A stretch of 36,491 nucleotides of DNA from Oscillospiraceae bacterium (lineage in GTDB: Bacteria > Bacillota > Clostridia > UMGS1810): the NCBI GenBank assembly GCA_015068825.1, contig SVJU01000018.1, forward strand, positions 1 to 36,491, given 5' to 3'. The notes under the pieces were generated by a model. It did not search any database. It was not told where the DNA came from and saw only the letters and a list, made by a program, of their open reading frames with translations. Position 1 is the stretch's first letter. The number at the start of each line of letters is the position of its first letter. This document shows positions 8,158 through 33,103 of this stretch, in pieces. The translations under genes were made by a program, and so were the position numbers.

Positions 8158-8955
8158 TTAAAATAACGGTTTGATACTGTATGTATGGTCTAATGGACCA
8201 CTTCCTTTACCTAAATTGAGCATAGCTAAGAGCGCACCTGTAAGATATGTTTTTGCATTTTCAATGCAAGTTGGTATATCAAAATTGTTTGCCAGATTGC
8301 AGGCAATGGCAGAAGATAAGGTACAGCCTGTACCGTGTGTGTTTGGATTATTAATTTTATTATGCGAAAACCATTTTATATTACCATTATCATATAAAAG
8401 GTCAGTTGCATAATCACTTAAAAGATGTCCTCCCTTAATGAGTATTGCACCGTTAAAGTAAAGGCTTATTTTTTCTGCAGCTTTTATCATATCATTTTTG
8501 TTTTCAATTTTGACACTGCTTAAAACCTCTGCTTCGGGAATGTTTGGTGTTATAATGTCGCAAAGCGGTATAAGAAGATTTTTAAGTGCATCAATTGCTT
8601 CGTCAAAAATAAGCTTACTTCCGCTTGTTGATACCATAACAGGGTCTAATACAATGTTTTTTGCCCTGTATTCTTTGAGCTTTTTTGCAATAACCTTAAT
8701 GTTGTCTGGACCTGATACCATTCCTATTTTTATACTGTCAGGAAAAATATCGGTAAAAACAGAGTCAAGCTGTGAGGATACAAAACTTTTGTCAACTGTT
8801 AAAATATCACTTACGCCCATTGTGTTTTGTGAGGTTACGGCACATAAAACACTCATTGCATACATTTTATGGGCTGTTATAGTTTTTATGTCTGCCTGGA
8901 TTCCTGCACCTCCACTTGAATCTGAGCCCGCAATTGTAAGCACTTTTTTAATCAC
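8158..8955 (-). CDS. thiD: Hydroxymethylpyrimidine / phosphomethylpyrimidine kinase
   Basis: This 265-residue ribokinase-fold kinase phosphorylates HMP to HMP-P and then HMP-PP, the pyrimidine donor for thiamine. Motifs seen are AGSDSSGGAGIQADIKT at the N terminus, DPVMVSTSG in the middle, KGGHL, and the anion-hole HGTGCTLSSA with its catalytic region. The start is GTG at 8955, preceded on the minus strand by AAAGGAGTGA, which lies over the end of thiE, so the two are translationally coupled (5 bp between genes). It is the last gene of the cytX-thiW-thiM-thiE-thiD cluster. Confidence 0.95.
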   Translation of the reverse strand: MIKKVLTIAGSDSSGGAGIQADIKTITAHKMYAMSVLCAVTSQNTMGVSDILTVDKSFVSSQLDSVFTDIFPDSIKIGMVSGPDNIKVIAKKLKEYRAKNIVLDPVMVSTSGSKLIFDEAIDALKNLLIPLCDIITPNIPEAEVLSSVKIENKNDMIKAAEKISLYFNGAILIKGGHLLSDYATDLLYDNGNIKWFSHNKINNPNTHGTGCTLSSAIACNLANNFDIPTCIENAKTYLTGALLAMLNLGKGSGPLDHTYSIKPLF

Positions 8956-8960
8956 TTAAA

Positions 8961-9596
8961 TCACTCCTTTATTACTTCTTTTGAAAGGTTGTATAACTTT
9001 TTTGTTATTTTCTTTTTGTTATCTGACGATAAAATTGTGTTTGATAATGCTACTCCGCAAATTTTAGTTGCCTTTAAGTTTAAAATATTGTTTTCATTTA
9101 TTCCGCCAATGGCAACTATTGGTATTGATACACTTCTTGCAATTTCTTCTAATTTTTCCAATGATAAAGAAACAGCGTCTTTTTTTGTTTCGGATGCAAA
9201 AACTGCCCCCGAACCGATATAATCAGCACCATCAGCTTGCGCTTTTTTTGCCTGCAAAACGGTTTTTGCGGTTGCACCGATTGTTTTATCATTACCCAAA
9301 ATTTTGCGTGCTTCTTTTATACTTAAATCATTCTGACCCAAATGAATTCCGTCTGCGCCCGATTTTATACAAACATTTATGTTGTCGTTTATAATAAGCG
9401 GAACACCGTGTTTTTCACAAAGCTTTTTTAAATTGATTGCCTCTTTTAAAAAATCATCTTCACACATATCTTTTTCTCTTAGCTGAATCATTGTAGCACC
9501 GCCAAGGATAATATCTTCAATATCCTTTAAAAAACTTTCTTCGTTTGCTTTATGTACTATTACATATAAAATAAGATTTTTTTTATCGAATTTCAT
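8961..9596 (-). CDS. thiE: Thiamine-phosphate synthase
   Basis: This 211-residue TIM-barrel enzyme joins HMP-PP to thiazole phosphate to give thiamine phosphate and pyrophosphate. Motifs are MIQLREKD, ADGIHLGQNDLS, IGATAKT, DYIGSGAVFASETKKDA and PIVAIGGINENN, in family order. The usual Pro after the DYIGxG loop is Ala here. A longer frame from 9647 exists, but AAAGGAG stands just before the ATG at 9596, and the resulting length is normal, so I chose it. The start overlaps the 3' end of thiM by 14 bp, which indicates translational coupling. Confidence 0.95.
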   Translation of the reverse strand: MKFDKKNLILYVIVHKANEESFLKDIEDIILGGATMIQLREKDMCEDDFLKEAINLKKLCEKHGVPLIINDNINVCIKSGADGIHLGQNDLSIKEARKILGNDKTIGATAKTVLQAKKAQADGADYIGSGAVFASETKKDAVSLSLEKLEEIARSVSIPIVAIGGINENNILNLKATKICGVALSNTILSSDNKKKITKKLYNLSKEVIKE

Positions 9597-10398
9597 ATTT
9601 TGCTCCTTTTGTAAAATCGCTTTGTGATAAATTAAAAACTTCATCAATAAGATAATTTCTGTAAGATAAATTACCGTCGTTTTCTTTCATACTGGCAAAT
9701 GCCTTTTCACCACACAATCCCATTGCGCATACACCGGATGCGCAGGCTGATAAAGCATCTCTTTTATTTGCACCCAAAAAAGCACTCAAAAGAGCACCAA
9801 GCATACAGCCTGATCCGGTTATACTTTCCATCATTTTATGACCGTTTTTTATAAGATATGTTTTTTCACCGTCTGATATTAAGTCAATTTCTCCTGTAAT
9901 AACAATAATAGCACTTGTTTTTTTGGCAAAATCTTTTGCAAGATTTATAAAAAGATAAATGTTTTCATTTGTTGTTTTATCATGTGTATCAACACCTTTG
10001 CCAAGTTTTTTACCATAGTAAAAAGCTTTTATTTCGGTTGCATTGCCTTTTATAACAGAAACTTTATTCTTTTTCAAAAGATAATTTGCGTATTTTAGTC
10101 TAAAAGATGATGCACCTATCCCAACAGGGTCTAAGCAAACAGGAATATCATTTTTGTTTGCAATTTTTACTGCTTTGTTAATGGCCTTTATTTTATCCTT
10201 GTTTAAAGTTCCAAGATTTATATATAATGCGTCGCATTTTGGTGTTATTTCTTTAATATCCAAAATACAATCTGCCATAACAGGTTTAGCACCTATTGCA
10301 TAAAGAATATTTGCACAGTCATTTGAAGTTACGTAATTTGTAAGCGAATGAACAAGTGGTTTTGTTTTTTTTATATTGTCAAGTGTGGAAAAATTCAC
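9583..10398 (-). CDS. thiM: Hydroxyethylthiazole kinase
   Basis: This 271-residue kinase phosphorylates the salvaged thiazole alcohol (HET) to HET-P, the second substrate of ThiE. Family motifs are PLVHSLTNYVTSNDCANILYAIG, ALYINLGTLN, LDPVGIGAS, VIKGNATEI and GSGCMLGALLSAFLGA (ATP and anion-hole region). Translation begins at GTG 10398 behind GGGGTG. It lies 13 bp after thiW, the likely thiazole importer, and overlaps thiE by 14 bp. Having a thiazole kinase and no thiazole biosynthesis gene in view fits a salvage pathway. Confidence 0.95.
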   Translation of the reverse strand: MNFSTLDNIKKTKPLVHSLTNYVTSNDCANILYAIGAKPVMADCILDIKEITPKCDALYINLGTLNKDKIKAINKAVKIANKNDIPVCLDPVGIGASSFRLKYANYLLKKNKVSVIKGNATEIKAFYYGKKLGKGVDTHDKTTNENIYLFINLAKDFAKKTSAIIVITGEIDLISDGEKTYLIKNGHKMMESITGSGCMLGALLSAFLGANKRDALSACASGVCAMGLCGEKAFASMKENDGNLSYRNYLIDEVFNLSQSDFTKGAKYEIR

Positions 10399-10411: not shown

Positions 10412-10906
10412 TTATTTTAAAAAATCGTTCAAAACTTTAGTTTTTTTCAAGGCAACAAGAATTACCGATGCAATTATGCAGCCTCCAAGTGTGCTTATTA
10501 AAAACGGAACAATGTATCCAAAAATAGCTGCTTGTTTGTTGCCAATTAAAAAATAAGCAACAGGGTATGCCAGAAGTCCGCCTATAACACTTGTGCCAAA
10601 CGCTTCGCCAAAAAGTGCAGATAAAGTGTTTTTAAATTTTTTATATAAAATTCCTGCAAGATAAGCTCCGCACATACTTCCCGGAAATGCAAGAAGCGTT
10701 CCAAGACCAAAAATGTTTCTTAAAACAGATGTAATAAATGCTGCAAGAACTGAGTAATATGGTCCTAAAATAATAGCGGATAATACATTTACAAGGTGCT
10801 GAACAGGTGAACATTTTGATGCAAATACAGGGAACGAAAAGGTTGAACCAAATACTGCAATGGCAATTAAAATTGCTGTTAATACTAATTTTTTTGTGTT
10901 TTTCAT
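10412..10906 (-). CDS. thiW: ECF transporter S component ThiW (predicted thiazole importer)
   Basis: This 164-residue membrane protein is the substrate-binding component of an energy-coupling-factor importer; the shared ATPases and EcfT must be elsewhere. It has about five or six membrane segments and the ThiW hallmark stretches FPVFASKCSPVQHLVNV, LGPYYSVLAAF, LRNIFGLGTLLAFPGSMCGA. A longer frame to 11035 runs into the leader RNA. The ATG at 10906 follows AAAGGAG with normal spacing, so I chose it. That ATG is part of a perfect 12-bp inverted repeat with 10948-10959, so its translation is probably gated by RNA structure. Linkage to thiM supports thiazole as substrate. Confidence 0.9.
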   Translation of the reverse strand: MKNTKKLVLTAILIAIAVFGSTFSFPVFASKCSPVQHLVNVLSAIILGPYYSVLAAFITSVLRNIFGLGTLLAFPGSMCGAYLAGILYKKFKNTLSALFGEAFGTSVIGGLLAYPVAYFLIGNKQAAIFGYIVPFLISTLGGCIIASVILVALKKTKVLNDFLK

Positions 10907-10960
10907 TTTGGAAAACTCCTTTTTAAATAAAATTTTGTCCTTTTGGATTTTCCAAAATGG
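10904..10960 (-). promoter_or_regulatory. Start-codon-sequestering switch before thiW
   Basis: In the mRNA, CAUUUUGGAAAA (plus 10959-10948) is perfectly complementary over 12 nt to UUUUCCAAAAUG (plus 10915-10904), whose last three bases are the thiW start codon. The ribosome site lies in the loop. The same 5' segment can instead form a local hairpin with UCCAAAAGG (plus 10939-10947) that leaves the start codon free. The two folds exclude each other. Confidence 0.6.
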
Positions 10961-10965
10961 GCGCA

Positions 10966-11054
10966 AAAACAGCGGACTTTTAAAAAAGCCAAAAGGTCGG
11001 TCGAAGGTCAGTTCCTTCCTCTCAATCTGAAACACAGACTCCCATCGCTGTTTT
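10966..11054 (-). promoter_or_regulatory. Variant TPP-like aptamer upstream of thiW
   Basis: The mRNA folds as a three-way junction. P1 is AAAACAGCG with CGCUGUUUU (plus 11046-11054 with 10966-10974, 9 perfect pairs). P2 is a weak UGGG with ACCG. P3 is GUCUG with CAGAU, followed directly by UGAGA (plus 11020-11024). P3a is GAAGG with CCUUC, followed by GACC. These match the pyrimidine-binding arm of clostridial TPP riboswitches, and the cytX riboswitch in this window shows the same order. The second arm, GAC-UUUU with AAAAGUC (plus 10991-10998 with 10975-10981), has none of the conserved CCUGAU, UAAU or GCGUAGGG bases that hold the pyrophosphate. Confidence 0.6.
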
Positions 11055-11085
11055 ATTGTCTTTAAAGATATTTATGCTTAAAATC

Positions 11086-11110
11086 CTTGCGGCGCTCCCC
11101 GCCCGGCAAG
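11086..11110 (-). repeat. GC-rich hairpin between cytX and the thiW leader
   Basis: CTTGC and GCAAG close a stem containing GGCG and CGCC around a GGGAG loop. It begins about 30 nt after the cytX stop. The following bases (GGATTTTAAG in the mRNA) are not a proper T tract, so termination would be leaky at best. No SigA promoter is evident between it and the thiW leader, so thiW-thiM-thiE-thiD is probably read through from cytX. Confidence 0.5.
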
Positions 11111-11139: not shown

Positions 11140-12306
11140 TTAATCAGTTACTCTTTTTATAAATTTGTTTGATACAAAAGTTATAACAATTACAATAACC
11201 ATTGCAGGAAGAGTGTAACCTAATGGTGTATCAATTTTCATAAGTAATCTGTATATAATAAATCCAATAATCCATATTACAATATTTAACATATCAATTT
11301 TTTTGTTGTCATTTCTATTATTAAGTATAAAATAATCGGTAATAAGAATTGCAATCATAGGTGCAAAAACCGAGCCAATAAAATATAAAAAGTTTTCAAA
11401 TCTTAAAATTGGTGTAAACGATGCAAGAAGCGTGCCTAAAATACAAATTATTATTGAAGATGCGCTTCCGTTTGCAGTTGGAAAAATACTTTTAAAGCTT
11501 ACCCCGGCTGAATAAGCATCAAGAAATGTTGTTGTAACTGTTGAAAAAACAATAATCAAAAGTGCAGATATTCCAAAGCCCGATTTAAGCATTATTAATG
11601 CAATATCTGTTTCGCCGGTGAAAATTGCAGCACCTAATCCTATAATATACATCCAGCAACTTGCAAAAAAATATGTAATACTGCTTGCAATTGTAGAACC
11701 AACAGGTTTTTTTGCGTCTTTGGTGTAATCTGAAATAAGCGGAAGCCACGAAAGCGGCATTGCAACTGAAAGCTCTACTGCTGCACCAAAGGTTATGTTG
11801 TCAAAAGATTTTAAATTACCTTTTACTTTAAAAATGACGGTACTTAATAAAATTGTAAGAAAAAATAACAGTAACATTGCAATGATATTGATTTTACCCA
11901 TATTTTTAAGACCGATAAATATCCATAGGCAAATTAAACCGCCTATAATAATATTCCAGGTCAATATGCCCATGCTGAAAATAGAATTTGCAGCGTTTGA
12001 ACCGTTTATTATCATAATTGCAGTCCAACCGATAAGTTGAATTACATTGAGCACAGAAAATATTAAAGAACCATTTTTGCCAAATGAAAATTTAACTGTT
12101 TCCATTGAGCTTTTTTCGGTTTTTCCACCGATAATTCCTGTAAGGCACATAAGTATTAATCCTATGAGGTGTCCTGTAAAAATTGCTGTGGTACCCTTTG
12201 CAAAACCTAACGGTGCAATAAGTGTTCCTGTAACGATTTCGGCAATTGAAACCGCGGCACCAAACCATATTAACGAATTTGAAAATATTGATGTTTTGTG
12301 TGACAT
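11140..12306 (-). CDS. cytX: NCS1-family hydroxymethylpyrimidine permease
   Basis: This 388-residue membrane protein with about 12 helices belongs to the nucleobase:cation symporter family. The N terminus SNSLIWFGAAVSIAEIVTGTLIAPLG and the later MPLSWLPLISDYTK are typical of CytX, predicted to import HMP, the pyrimidine half of thiamine. A TPP riboswitch with terminator precedes it, and the thiazole importer, the kinases and thiE follow on the same strand. All this supports the assignment over cytosine transport. ATG 12306 follows GAAGG. It is the first gene of the salvage cluster and probably sets the level of the whole transcript. Confidence 0.9.
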   Translation of the reverse strand: MSHKTSIFSNSLIWFGAAVSIAEIVTGTLIAPLGFAKGTTAIFTGHLIGLILMCLTGIIGGKTEKSSMETVKFSFGKNGSLIFSVLNVIQLIGWTAIMIINGSNAANSIFSMGILTWNIIIGGLICLWIFIGLKNMGKINIIAMLLLFFLTILLSTVIFKVKGNLKSFDNITFGAAVELSVAMPLSWLPLISDYTKDAKKPVGSTIASSITYFFASCWMYIIGLGAAIFTGETDIALIMLKSGFGISALLIIVFSTVTTTFLDAYSAGVSFKSIFPTANGSASSIIICILGTLLASFTPILRFENFLYFIGSVFAPMIAILITDYFILNNRNDNKKIDMLNIVIWIIGFIIYRLLMKIDTPLGYTLPAMVIVIVITFVSNKFIKRVTD

Positions 12307-12380: not shown

Positions 12381-12401
12381 TTAAAAAACAAGTTTAGTAT
12401 A

Positions 12402-12494
12402 AACTACCTACGTTGGCATTATCCAAATCAGGTTAAAAGGGTCGAAGCTAAATTACTTCCTCTCAGCCTGATATTTACAAGCTCCCCTGTTAAA
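12402..12494 (-). promoter_or_regulatory. TPP riboswitch (THI element)
   Basis: The minus strand shows the full consensus in order: GGGGAGC, CAGGCUGAGAGGAAG, CUUCGACCC, UUAACCUGAUUUGGAUAAU and GCCAACGUAGGUAG. Both the pyrimidine arm (UGAGA) and the pyrophosphate arm (CCUGAU...UAAU...GUAGG) are intact. TPP binding holds the 3' GGUAG in the aptamer, which frees the terminator to form. High TPP should therefore stop cytX transcription. Confidence 0.96.
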
Positions 12495-12510
12495 TTTTCA
12501 ATTTTTAAGT

Positions 12511-30934: not shown

Positions 30935-31245
30935 TAAAAAACTTTTGGATATATCTTGCCTGCGCAACGCTTATAACATATTTAATCCGTATGCTTCCGA
31001 TTGTGCTTGTTAAAAAGAAAATTAAAAACAAATTTTTACTGTCGTTTTTATATTACATACCATATGCGGTTTTGAGTGTTATGACAATTCCTGCAATATT
31101 TTATGCAACATCTTATAAAATATCTGCAATAGTAGGATTTTTAATTGCTCTTATTCTTGCATATAAAGAAAAAAGCCTTGTTACAGTAGCATTTTTTTCG
31201 TGTCTTGCAGTGTTCTTATGCGAAACGATTATTAAATTTATATAA
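30931..31245 (+). CDS. azlD: AzlD-family exporter, small subunit
   Basis: This 104-residue protein has three or four membrane helices and the family start LACATLITYLIRMLPIV. It begins at the ATGA overlap with azlC, so the two are translationally coupled and assemble together. A perfect terminator follows. Confidence 0.92.
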   Translation: MIKNFWIYLACATLITYLIRMLPIVLVKKKIKNKFLLSFLYYIPYAVLSVMTIPAIFYATSYKISAIVGFLIALILAYKEKSLVTVAFFSCLAVFLCETIIKFI

Positions 31246-31275
31246 AAAAAGCCCTTCATAGAAGGGCTTTTTTTT
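31244..31275. terminator. Bidirectional terminator between azlD and the AGCS gene
   Basis: AAAAAAAGCCCTTC (31244-31257) pairs with GAAGGGCTTTTTTT (31261-31274) with a 3-nt loop. Long T tracts are present on both strands. Confidence 0.93.
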
Positions 31276-31286
31276 ATGTCAAATTA

Positions 31287-32813
31287 TTATTTTACTTCTT
31301 CTTTAAGCTTTGCTTCCTGCTCAGCCTGAATATCGTCAAATACAGAAATCATAGGTTTAATATCTTTACCCTTTAGTTTTCTGTCAACATAGTTCTTTGT
31401 AATTTTCATTACAAGACCAGAAAGTGCAAGAACACCAATTAAGTTAGGTACCATCATAAGACCATTGAATGTATCTGAAATATCCCATGCAAGAGATGAT
31501 GTTAAAAGTGCACCGAACATAATTGTTACAAGGTGAATAATTCTGTAAACAACAAGTGATTTTGTACCAAACAGATATTCCCATGCTTTTGAACCGTAGT
31601 GGTCCCAACCAAGAACTGTTGTGAAAGCGAAAAGTAAAATTGCAACAGCGATAAATCTTTCACCCCAAACACCAAATAGAAGTGAGAATGCTTTAGCAAC
31701 AAGGTTAGCATCGGTAGCGCCTTCAATCAAAGTACCGGTATCAAGGTTAATTACACCAGATGTAAGAACAACCAAAGCTGTCATTGTACAAACAACCATT
31801 GTATCTGCAAAAACTTCAAATATACCCCAAAGACCTTGTCTTACAGGTTCAATAACATTTGAATTTGAGTGTACCATAACAGATGAACCAAGACCTGCTT
31901 CGTTCGAGAATACGCCTCTTTTACATCCAAGTGTTACAATTTCTTTAACAGCAATACCTGTAACACCACCCCAGACAGCAGGACCTGTAAATGCATATTT
32001 GAAAATTGATTTAAACGCTGCACCAATATTTGCAAAGTTAACTCCAAGAATAATAAGGCTTCCTGCAACAAATAAAACTACCATGAAAGGTACAACTTTT
32101 TCTGCAAAGTTTGCAATTCTCTTAAGACCGCCAAGGATGATAAGAGCTGCAATTGCAACTAAAACAATACCAATGATAAGGTGATACATAGTTACGTTTC
32201 CAAAAGGAATTGCTGTTAATGAAGGCACTTGGAAAGCATCAACGATATTTACAACAATTTTATTTATCTGACCCATAGCGCCAATACCAAATGATGCCAA
32301 AATAGCAAAGATTGCAAAAAGAACAGCAAGAATAATGCCTATGTATTTGCAGCCTTTCATTTTGCCAAGACCATCTCTTAAATAGTACATAGCACCGCCT
32401 GACCATTCGCCATCTTCATTTTTTCTTCTGTAATAAATACCAAGAACATTTTCAGAATAGTTGGTCATCATACCAAAGAATGCAGCAATCCACATCCAGA
32501 AAACAGCACCGGGACCACCGCCAACAATAGCAGCTGCAACACCGGCAATGTTACCAACACCGATTGTAGCTGCAAGTGCAGTACAAAGTGCCTGGAACTG
32601 TGAAATTGATTTGCCTTTTACGTGACCTGAAACATCTTTTTTAAATAAACTTCCAAGTGTTTCAGAAAACCAGTGACCAATGTGTGTAATCTGAAATACG
32701 CCTGTAATAACAGTCATAATTACACCGGTTGCAAGTAATAGGTATAAACCTTTACCCCATACAAAACTATTAACATTGTTGTTAAAGTTTGTGAGCCATT
32801 CAAAGAAACTCAT
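31287..32813 (-). CDS. Sodium:alanine/glycine symporter (AGCS family)
   Basis: This 508-residue membrane protein with about 11 helices couples sodium to uptake of alanine or glycine. Family stretches are GNIAGVAAAIVGGGPGAVFWMWIAAFFGM, the metal region TNYSENVLGIYYR, GGAMYYLRDGLG and GVFSNEAGLGSSVMVHSNS. AAAGGAAG precedes ATG 32813. A tandem glycine riboswitch and terminator stand between its promoter and the start, so glycine is a likely substrate and signal. It is a single-gene unit. Confidence 0.95.
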   Translation of the reverse strand: MSFFEWLTNFNNNVNSFVWGKGLYLLLATGVIMTVITGVFQITHIGHWFSETLGSLFKKDVSGHVKGKSISQFQALCTALAATIGVGNIAGVAAAIVGGGPGAVFWMWIAAFFGMMTNYSENVLGIYYRRKNEDGEWSGGAMYYLRDGLGKMKGCKYIGIILAVLFAIFAILASFGIGAMGQINKIVVNIVDAFQVPSLTAIPFGNVTMYHLIIGIVLVAIAALIILGGLKRIANFAEKVVPFMVVLFVAGSLIILGVNFANIGAAFKSIFKYAFTGPAVWGGVTGIAVKEIVTLGCKRGVFSNEAGLGSSVMVHSNSNVIEPVRQGLWGIFEVFADTMVVCTMTALVVLTSGVINLDTGTLIEGATDANLVAKAFSLLFGVWGERFIAVAILLFAFTTVLGWDHYGSKAWEYLFGTKSLVVYRIIHLVTIMFGALLTSSLAWDISDTFNGLMMVPNLIGVLALSGLVMKITKNYVDRKLKGKDIKPMISVFDDIQAEQEAKLKEEVK

Positions 32814-32886: not shown

Positions 32887-32922
32887 AAACAGTAAACAAA
32901 CCTATTAATTTAAAAGGTTGTA

Positions 32923-33103
32923 CCTCCGTCCTTTTGCCTGAGAGATTAACTCTAAAAAAAGAGTCTTGCACCTTCGGCATCCTTTGCTTAAAATATAAGC
33001 GGACTTCTCCGGAGCGCTATCCGTTTGCAGTCTTTACTTTAATAAAGCACCTGAGAGTGTTACTCCTTCGGCGGGTTTAAAAGATTAAACCCTTTTCCTG
33101 CAT
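32923..33103 (-). promoter_or_regulatory. Tandem glycine riboswitch
   Basis: Two glycine aptamers stand in a row on the minus strand. Aptamer I is at plus 33027-33103, with GCAGGAAAAGGG, CGCCGAAGGAGTAA, CTCTCAGG and closing CTGC. Aptamer II is at 32923-33014, with CTCCGGAGAAGTCCGC, GCCGAAGGTGCAAG and CTCTCAGGCAAAAGGACGGAG. The consensus GCCGAAGG and CTCTCAGG blocks occur in both. The terminator follows 37 nt after aptamer II. Confidence 0.95.

Follow-up and report, generated by a model that had tools for sequence, protein, structure and literature searches.

We identified a conserved, putatively regulatory RNA in front of thiW in more than 100 gut Clostridia, which, as judged from alignment, is related to the TPP aptamer, with the pyrimidine half kept and the pyrophosphate half lacking. 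This RNA is probably an undescribed riboswitch candidate for a compound of the thiamin pathway other than TPP. The copy analyzed here lies on the minus strand of a 36,491-nucleotide contig of an Oscillospiraceae bacterium, the whole of which is called the window. A preliminary description had proposed a three-way junction at 10966-11054 made of P1, P3 followed by UGAGA, P3a (GAAGG/CCUUC) and GACC, with an AU-rich hairpin in the place of the canonical second arm and with a canonical TPP riboswitch nearby, in front of cytX. Inspection of the minus strand located all of these parts, and the neighboring riboswitch is recognized by the Rfam model (see the list below). The element turned out to span more than first reported, reaching on its 5' side to about 11106, where a hairpin absent from that description (P0) is found, and on its 3' side, with the expression platform, to the thiW start codon at 10904. 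Its parts and the adjoining genes are as follows:

12388-12498, minus strand: canonical TPP riboswitch heading the operon (RF00059, 75.7 bits).
11140-12306, minus strand: cytX, encoding a putative HMP transporter and lying immediately upstream of the element (TIGR02358, 396.7 bits).
11085-11106, minus strand: P0 hairpin with the loop GGAGCG (loop at 11093-11098); stem covariation, invariant GAGC.
11046-11054, minus strand: 5' strand of P1, AAAACAGCG, with nine perfect pairs to 10965-10973.
10998-11048, minus strand: aptamer core of 51 nt, GCGAUGGGA-P3-UGAGAG-P3a-GACCG, comprising P2, P3, the T-loop and P3a (model R1, 74.3 bits; covariation).
11024-11040, minus strand: P3 with the conserved loop UGUUU; four pairs with compensatory changes.
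11020-11024, minus strand: J3/2 T-loop UGAGA, the putative pyrimidine-pocket equivalent of U39-A43 in the E. coli thiM aptamer (UGAGAG invariant; role from PMC3764141).
11003-11018, minus strand: P3a with the hexaloop AACUGA; four pairs with compensatory changes, conserved loop of the AA..GA type.
10976-10997, minus strand: P4 region, the second arm of the preliminary description and here switch strand 1; alternative pairing with 10937-10957 (-17.8 kcal/mol, z -3.4).
10965-10973, minus strand: 3' strand of P1, CGCUGUUUU (sequence; permutation test).
10937-10957, minus strand: strand 2, AUUUUGGAAAAUCCAAAAGGA, predicted to pair with P4 or with the ribosome-binding site (pairing energies against controls).
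10904-10920, minus strand: strand 3, from the Shine-Dalgarno (SD) sequence to the thiW start codon (AGGAGUUUUCCAAAAUG); pairs with strand 2 (-14.9 kcal/mol, z -3.0).
10412-10906, minus strand: thiW, S component of an ECF transporter (thiazole importer; TIGR02359, 161.5 bits).
8158-10398, minus strand: thiM, thiE and thiD downstream of thiW (NCBIfam matches).

The RF00059 model gave no match at 10966-11054 even at E values up to 10. In the leaders of the relatives this model matches only the upstream TPP riboswitch. Rfam 15 holds no family for the element, and relaxed thresholds returned nothing meaningful in the window or in the leaders of its relatives. No published description was found in a search of openly readable literature.

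The distribution of the element was determined with several searches. When 60 related genomes were searched with the leader as query, ordinary TPP riboswitches were returned and, in G003, G006, G007 and G041, also a second element that lies downstream of a canonical TPP riboswitch and some 100 nt ahead of thiW. The four elements share the frame GCGAUGGGA-NNNN-GUGUUUC-NNNN-UGAGAGG-P3a-CGACCG. The pattern GATGGGA-N5-TGTTT-N5-TGAGAG occurred in 10 of 391 sampled genomes of the class and its reversed control in none, and in the GTDB genome collection at least 116 contigs carried the pattern CGATGGGA-N5-TGTTT-N5-TGAGA. Nearly all of the GTDB matches listed belong to Oscillospiraceae, Lachnospiraceae, Ruminococcus and other Clostridia, many of them from gut or rumen; 80 of these loci were retrieved. 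The locus L066 proved to be a chance pattern match and was removed. Finally, a covariance model of the core detected six members at 62 to 74 bits among 398 genomes of the phylum, followed by a gap, and the loci inspected from 42 bits downward were ordinary pyrimidine arms of TPP riboswitches.

The fold of the core was assessed by covariation, since energy folding was no better than shuffles (z -0.8 and -0.9) and its minimum-energy structure misses P3a. Across 51 distinct sequences, 128 cells were changed on both sides of a pair, compared with 36 ± 6 in shuffles (0/500) and at most 21 in slid controls. The cells of P2, P3 and P3a are 94% paired, and both-side changes were observed for four pairs of P3 and four pairs of P3a; P2 (UGG/CCG) is invariant and therefore neither supported nor contradicted by this analysis. 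The P3a hexaloop (core columns 36-42; 11008-11013 in the window) reads AANNGA in most cases, its last A being invariant, the AA..GA form being present in 39 of 63 full-length loops, and it likely makes a tertiary contact. For the closing helix P1, members of the window type, in which the core is preceded by A-GCG, gave 16 helices with a score of at least 7 against 4.8 expected from swapped partners (0/2000), while the other half of the family gave no signal in the same controls.

In TPP aptamers, U39-A43 form a T-loop that is joined to P2 via G19-G42-A47 (PMC3764141), and the aminopyrimidine is contacted by G40 and G19 and sits between G42 and A43 (PMC7824784). The core model scores 74 bits on the window element, 25-42 bits on TPP pyrimidine arms and 33 bits on the cytX riboswitch of the window. 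When the numbering of the E. coli aptamer is transferred through the alignment, a correspondence that is itself putative, the equivalents of G19, U39-A43 and A47 are invariant in 71 of 71 distinct cores. UGAGAG is likewise present in all 71; it was fixed by the search pattern in most members and free in those found by the model. These model-found members, free of the pattern constraint and carrying UGUUC loops, GCGAGGGA or GCUAGGGA, retain the pocket positions. The canonical pattern of the pyrophosphate arm (P4/P5; U59, G60, C77, G78) follows the core in none of 101 loci, in agreement with the initial view of a TPP-aptamer relative deprived of this arm. Because neither the pyrophosphate arm nor a match to the Rfam model was found, we do not assign the element to the TPP family.

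The P0 hairpin, which lay outside every search pattern used, is mostly located 15-45 nt upstream of the core and carries an invariant GAGC inside its six-base loop. Both-side changes were observed in nine of nine stem pairs among 55 distinct copies, and the stem is 86% paired overall, with one middle pair mostly open. Hairpins with at least 7 of the 9 pairs were found at 89 of 99 loci against 4 of 588 control windows; the copy of the window has 6 of 9. L082 is the only locus that has the core and no upstream P0, possibly the result of an assembly join. The GAGC of the P0 loop (11093-11098) may form a kissing interaction with GUU[U/C] of the P3 loop (11030-11034), in which case a G-U pair would be replaced by G-C in the U-to-C variants of the P3 loop; GAGC itself does not vary. 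A pairing of GCGA with the P0 loop was rejected by eye, as the loops GGAGCU and GGAGCA occur with the same GCGA. Upstream of P0 in L018, L024, L026 and L033, a GTG or ATG stands 7-10 nt behind a GGAGG that resembles a ribosome-binding site and opens a frame extending into P0 (by eye), with the readings VARERLTS... and MARELLTS*. A conserved leader peptide is unsupported, since this frame stops early in L026 and L033.

To characterize the expression platform, pairing energies were compared with controls at 20 window-type loci. The P4 region pairs with strand 2 at -20.7 kcal/mol, compared with -13.5 kcal/mol for permuted partners, and strand 2 pairs with the SD/start region at -9.8 compared with -7.0 kcal/mol (0/5000 in either case). 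Dinucleotide shuffles of the same sequences gave combined Z values of -10.8 and -5.5, respectively, with 14 and 8 of the 20 individual loci below 0.05. The P1 partners of these loci were picked by their own pairing, partly by hand, a choice that does not directly bias the test of P4 with strand 2 but confines it to this subset. Since both pairings exceed their controls, the AU-rich arm, the new P4 of the preliminary description, is better regarded as a switching strand than as a conserved sensing arm: it is variable, several relatives lack it, and in window-type members the downstream strand is its alternative partner. Members of this type possess three mutually exclusive strands, of which the alternative partner can mask the ribosome-binding site. 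As in riboswitches generally, a covarying, conserved putative aptamer is linked to a predicted expression platform, the latter in the window-type half.

The closed state has the lower computed energy in 19 of 20 window-type loci, a result suggestive of an on-switch whose default is off. In silico, forcing the core did not consistently alter the accessibility of the SD sequence (up in 9 and down in 11 of 82), and neither did forcing P1. A competition between P1, P4 and an anti-SD strand in U-GCG-type members, attractive by eye, gave no signal against swapped partners. Likewise, a role of P1 as an intrinsic terminator, suggested by the window, L054 and L062, was dismissed, as most members have no U-run: runs of at least five U within 60 nt after the core were present in only 22 of 99 loci, and no terminator-like site was called in the window.

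The gene context is that of thiamin salvage. Among the matches listed, the next gene after the element is thiW at 79 of 90 loci and thiM at 3, the rest being mostly contig edges; a later count found thiW downstream at 79 of 94 loci, with thiM within 6 kb in 72. A tandem arrangement behind a TPP riboswitch was observed, again among the matches listed, at 59 of 90 distinct loci and in the later count at 63 of 94. In five loci outside this tandem set, that of the window included, the element directly follows cytX, a putative HMP importer, with thiW as the next gene, or thiM in L032. In many loci thiM, thiE and thiD continue the operon. ThiC was detected in 14 of 21 genomes with the element (one a fragment) and a full-strength ThiG match in only 4 of 21, while the genome of the window gave a match to neither. 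These counts and the cytX context suggest that the pyrimidine is made or imported and the thiazole mostly imported. The presence of ThiC and ThiG did not clearly separate thiW genomes with the element from those without. Taken together, the pocket and the gene context point to an HMP-bearing ligand as the likely one.

Other RNA matches were noted in passing. A Clostridiales-1 RNA (RF01699) lies between a TPP riboswitch and thiW at L237 118-240 (minus strand), in a genome without the element. The window also contains a glycine riboswitch aptamer at 32916-33022 (minus strand, 51.1 bits), and weak matches to Phe_leader, SpF51 and STnc100 on both strands at 31228-31298 fall on one terminator-like hairpin.

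We favor, with a probability of about 0.5, a translational riboswitch for an HMP-ring compound other than TPP that acts on the thiazole branch. HMP-PP would be the foremost candidate for the ligand, although we hold this assignment only tentatively; thiamin or thiamin monophosphate would rank after it, as a possibility of somewhat lower probability. The sensing part would descend from the pyrimidine half of the TPP aptamer or share its design, P0 with its GAGC loop would replace the pyrophosphate half, and the genes of the thiazole branch (thiW, thiM, often thiE and thiD) would be controlled at translation. With P1 and P4 closed, strand 2 would remain available for masking the ribosome-binding site of thiW (off), whereas pairing of P4 with strand 2 would leave this site free (on); we infer that a small molecule chooses between the two states. 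The preferred direction is a closed, off default that the ligand would open, and thiazole would then be imported only at low TPP and with the pyrimidine half waiting, following the logic of the proven HMP-PP riboswitch. Against this reading, a ligand-stabilized closing helix, the commonest riboswitch design, would make the ligand a repressor, a better fit for thiamin or thiamin monophosphate than for HMP-PP. Furthermore, thiD, the maker of HMP-PP, often lies downstream of the element, and the support for P1 and the three-strand switch is confined to the window-type half.

The same common design speaks for an off-switch responding to thiamin or thiamin monophosphate, in which the ligand would close P1 and P4, strand 2 would mask the thiW site and salvage would stop when thiamin is plentiful. 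The closed state does leave strand 2 free to cover the site, and the lost pyrophosphate arm would suit a ligand without a diphosphate. However, the computed energies favor closure already without a ligand, the end product would already be signaled by the TPP riboswitch in tandem, and simple closure leaves the invariant GCGA and GAGC unexplained, so that we consider this off-switch unlikely, though a serious competitor. Considerably less probable is a sensor that still binds TPP, with P0 holding the pyrophosphate from the 5' side and the tandem loci acting as double TPP switches. Tandem TPP riboswitches are indeed common before thi operons of Bacillota (PMC12452182) and the P0 loop is invariant, but nothing like the metal-binding J4-5/J5-4 nucleotides is left, and the P0 loop bears no similarity to them. 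Even more doubtful is an RNA whose partner is a protein or a second RNA instead of a metabolite: the conserved P0 and P3a loops would allow for it, yet the element retains, intact, the pyrimidine pocket known from a metabolite aptamer, and the genes are thiamin genes. Finally, a functionless, decaying duplicate of the neighboring cytX riboswitch, to which the element shows 81% local similarity over 32 nt, is refuted by covariation, as the conservation extends over many genera and includes compensatory changes, and the window element is closer to other thiW-leader elements (88% over 59 nt) than to its cytX neighbor.

If the favored HMP-ring riboswitch is correct, one of the commonest aptamers would have been recut, with one half of the ligand site kept and the other replaced, to give a riboswitch with a different ligand, which would represent a natural test of aptamer modularity. 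Many gut Clostridia, in whose thiW leaders Rfam annotates only the TPP riboswitch, would moreover have a further regulator of vitamin B1 salvage. Should the ligand be HMP-PP, two unrelated RNAs would serve the same gate before thiW.

The element shares with the TPP riboswitch (RF00059) the order of P2 with a bulged G, P3, the UGAGA T-loop, an optional P3a and the ACC return strand, the invariance of all positions contacting the pyrimidine, and the thiamin genes downstream. In contrast to it, the element has no CUGAU, UAAU and CGUAGGG of the P4/P5 pyrophosphate arm, is undetected by the RF00059 model, and instead possesses the conserved P3 loop UGUU[U/C], a conserved GCGA before P2 and an extra 5' hairpin with a GAGC loop. 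The proven HMP-PP riboswitch (thiS motif), which turns genes on, lies behind a TPP riboswitch before thiW of C. lundense (PMC6478431). Both RNAs precede thiW or other thiazole genes and frequently form a tandem with a TPP riboswitch upstream, and the element probably gates the thiazole branch as well. However, the HMP-PP riboswitch consists of one terminator hairpin in which the aptamer is embedded and controls transcription, whereas the element has a T-loop arm and a separate P0 and, in most members, lacks a U-run in the 60 nt that follow the core. On this architecture, the element was judged not to be the thiS motif, which was compared by its description. The reuse of a known scaffold for a related ligand beside other genes has been described for ykkC subtype 2, c-AMP-GMP and 2'-dG variants (PMC7266159), and the element would resemble these classes in this respect. 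While those variants retain the architecture of the parent and differ from it in nucleotides of the pocket, the element lacks a whole ligand-binding arm and carries another hairpin.
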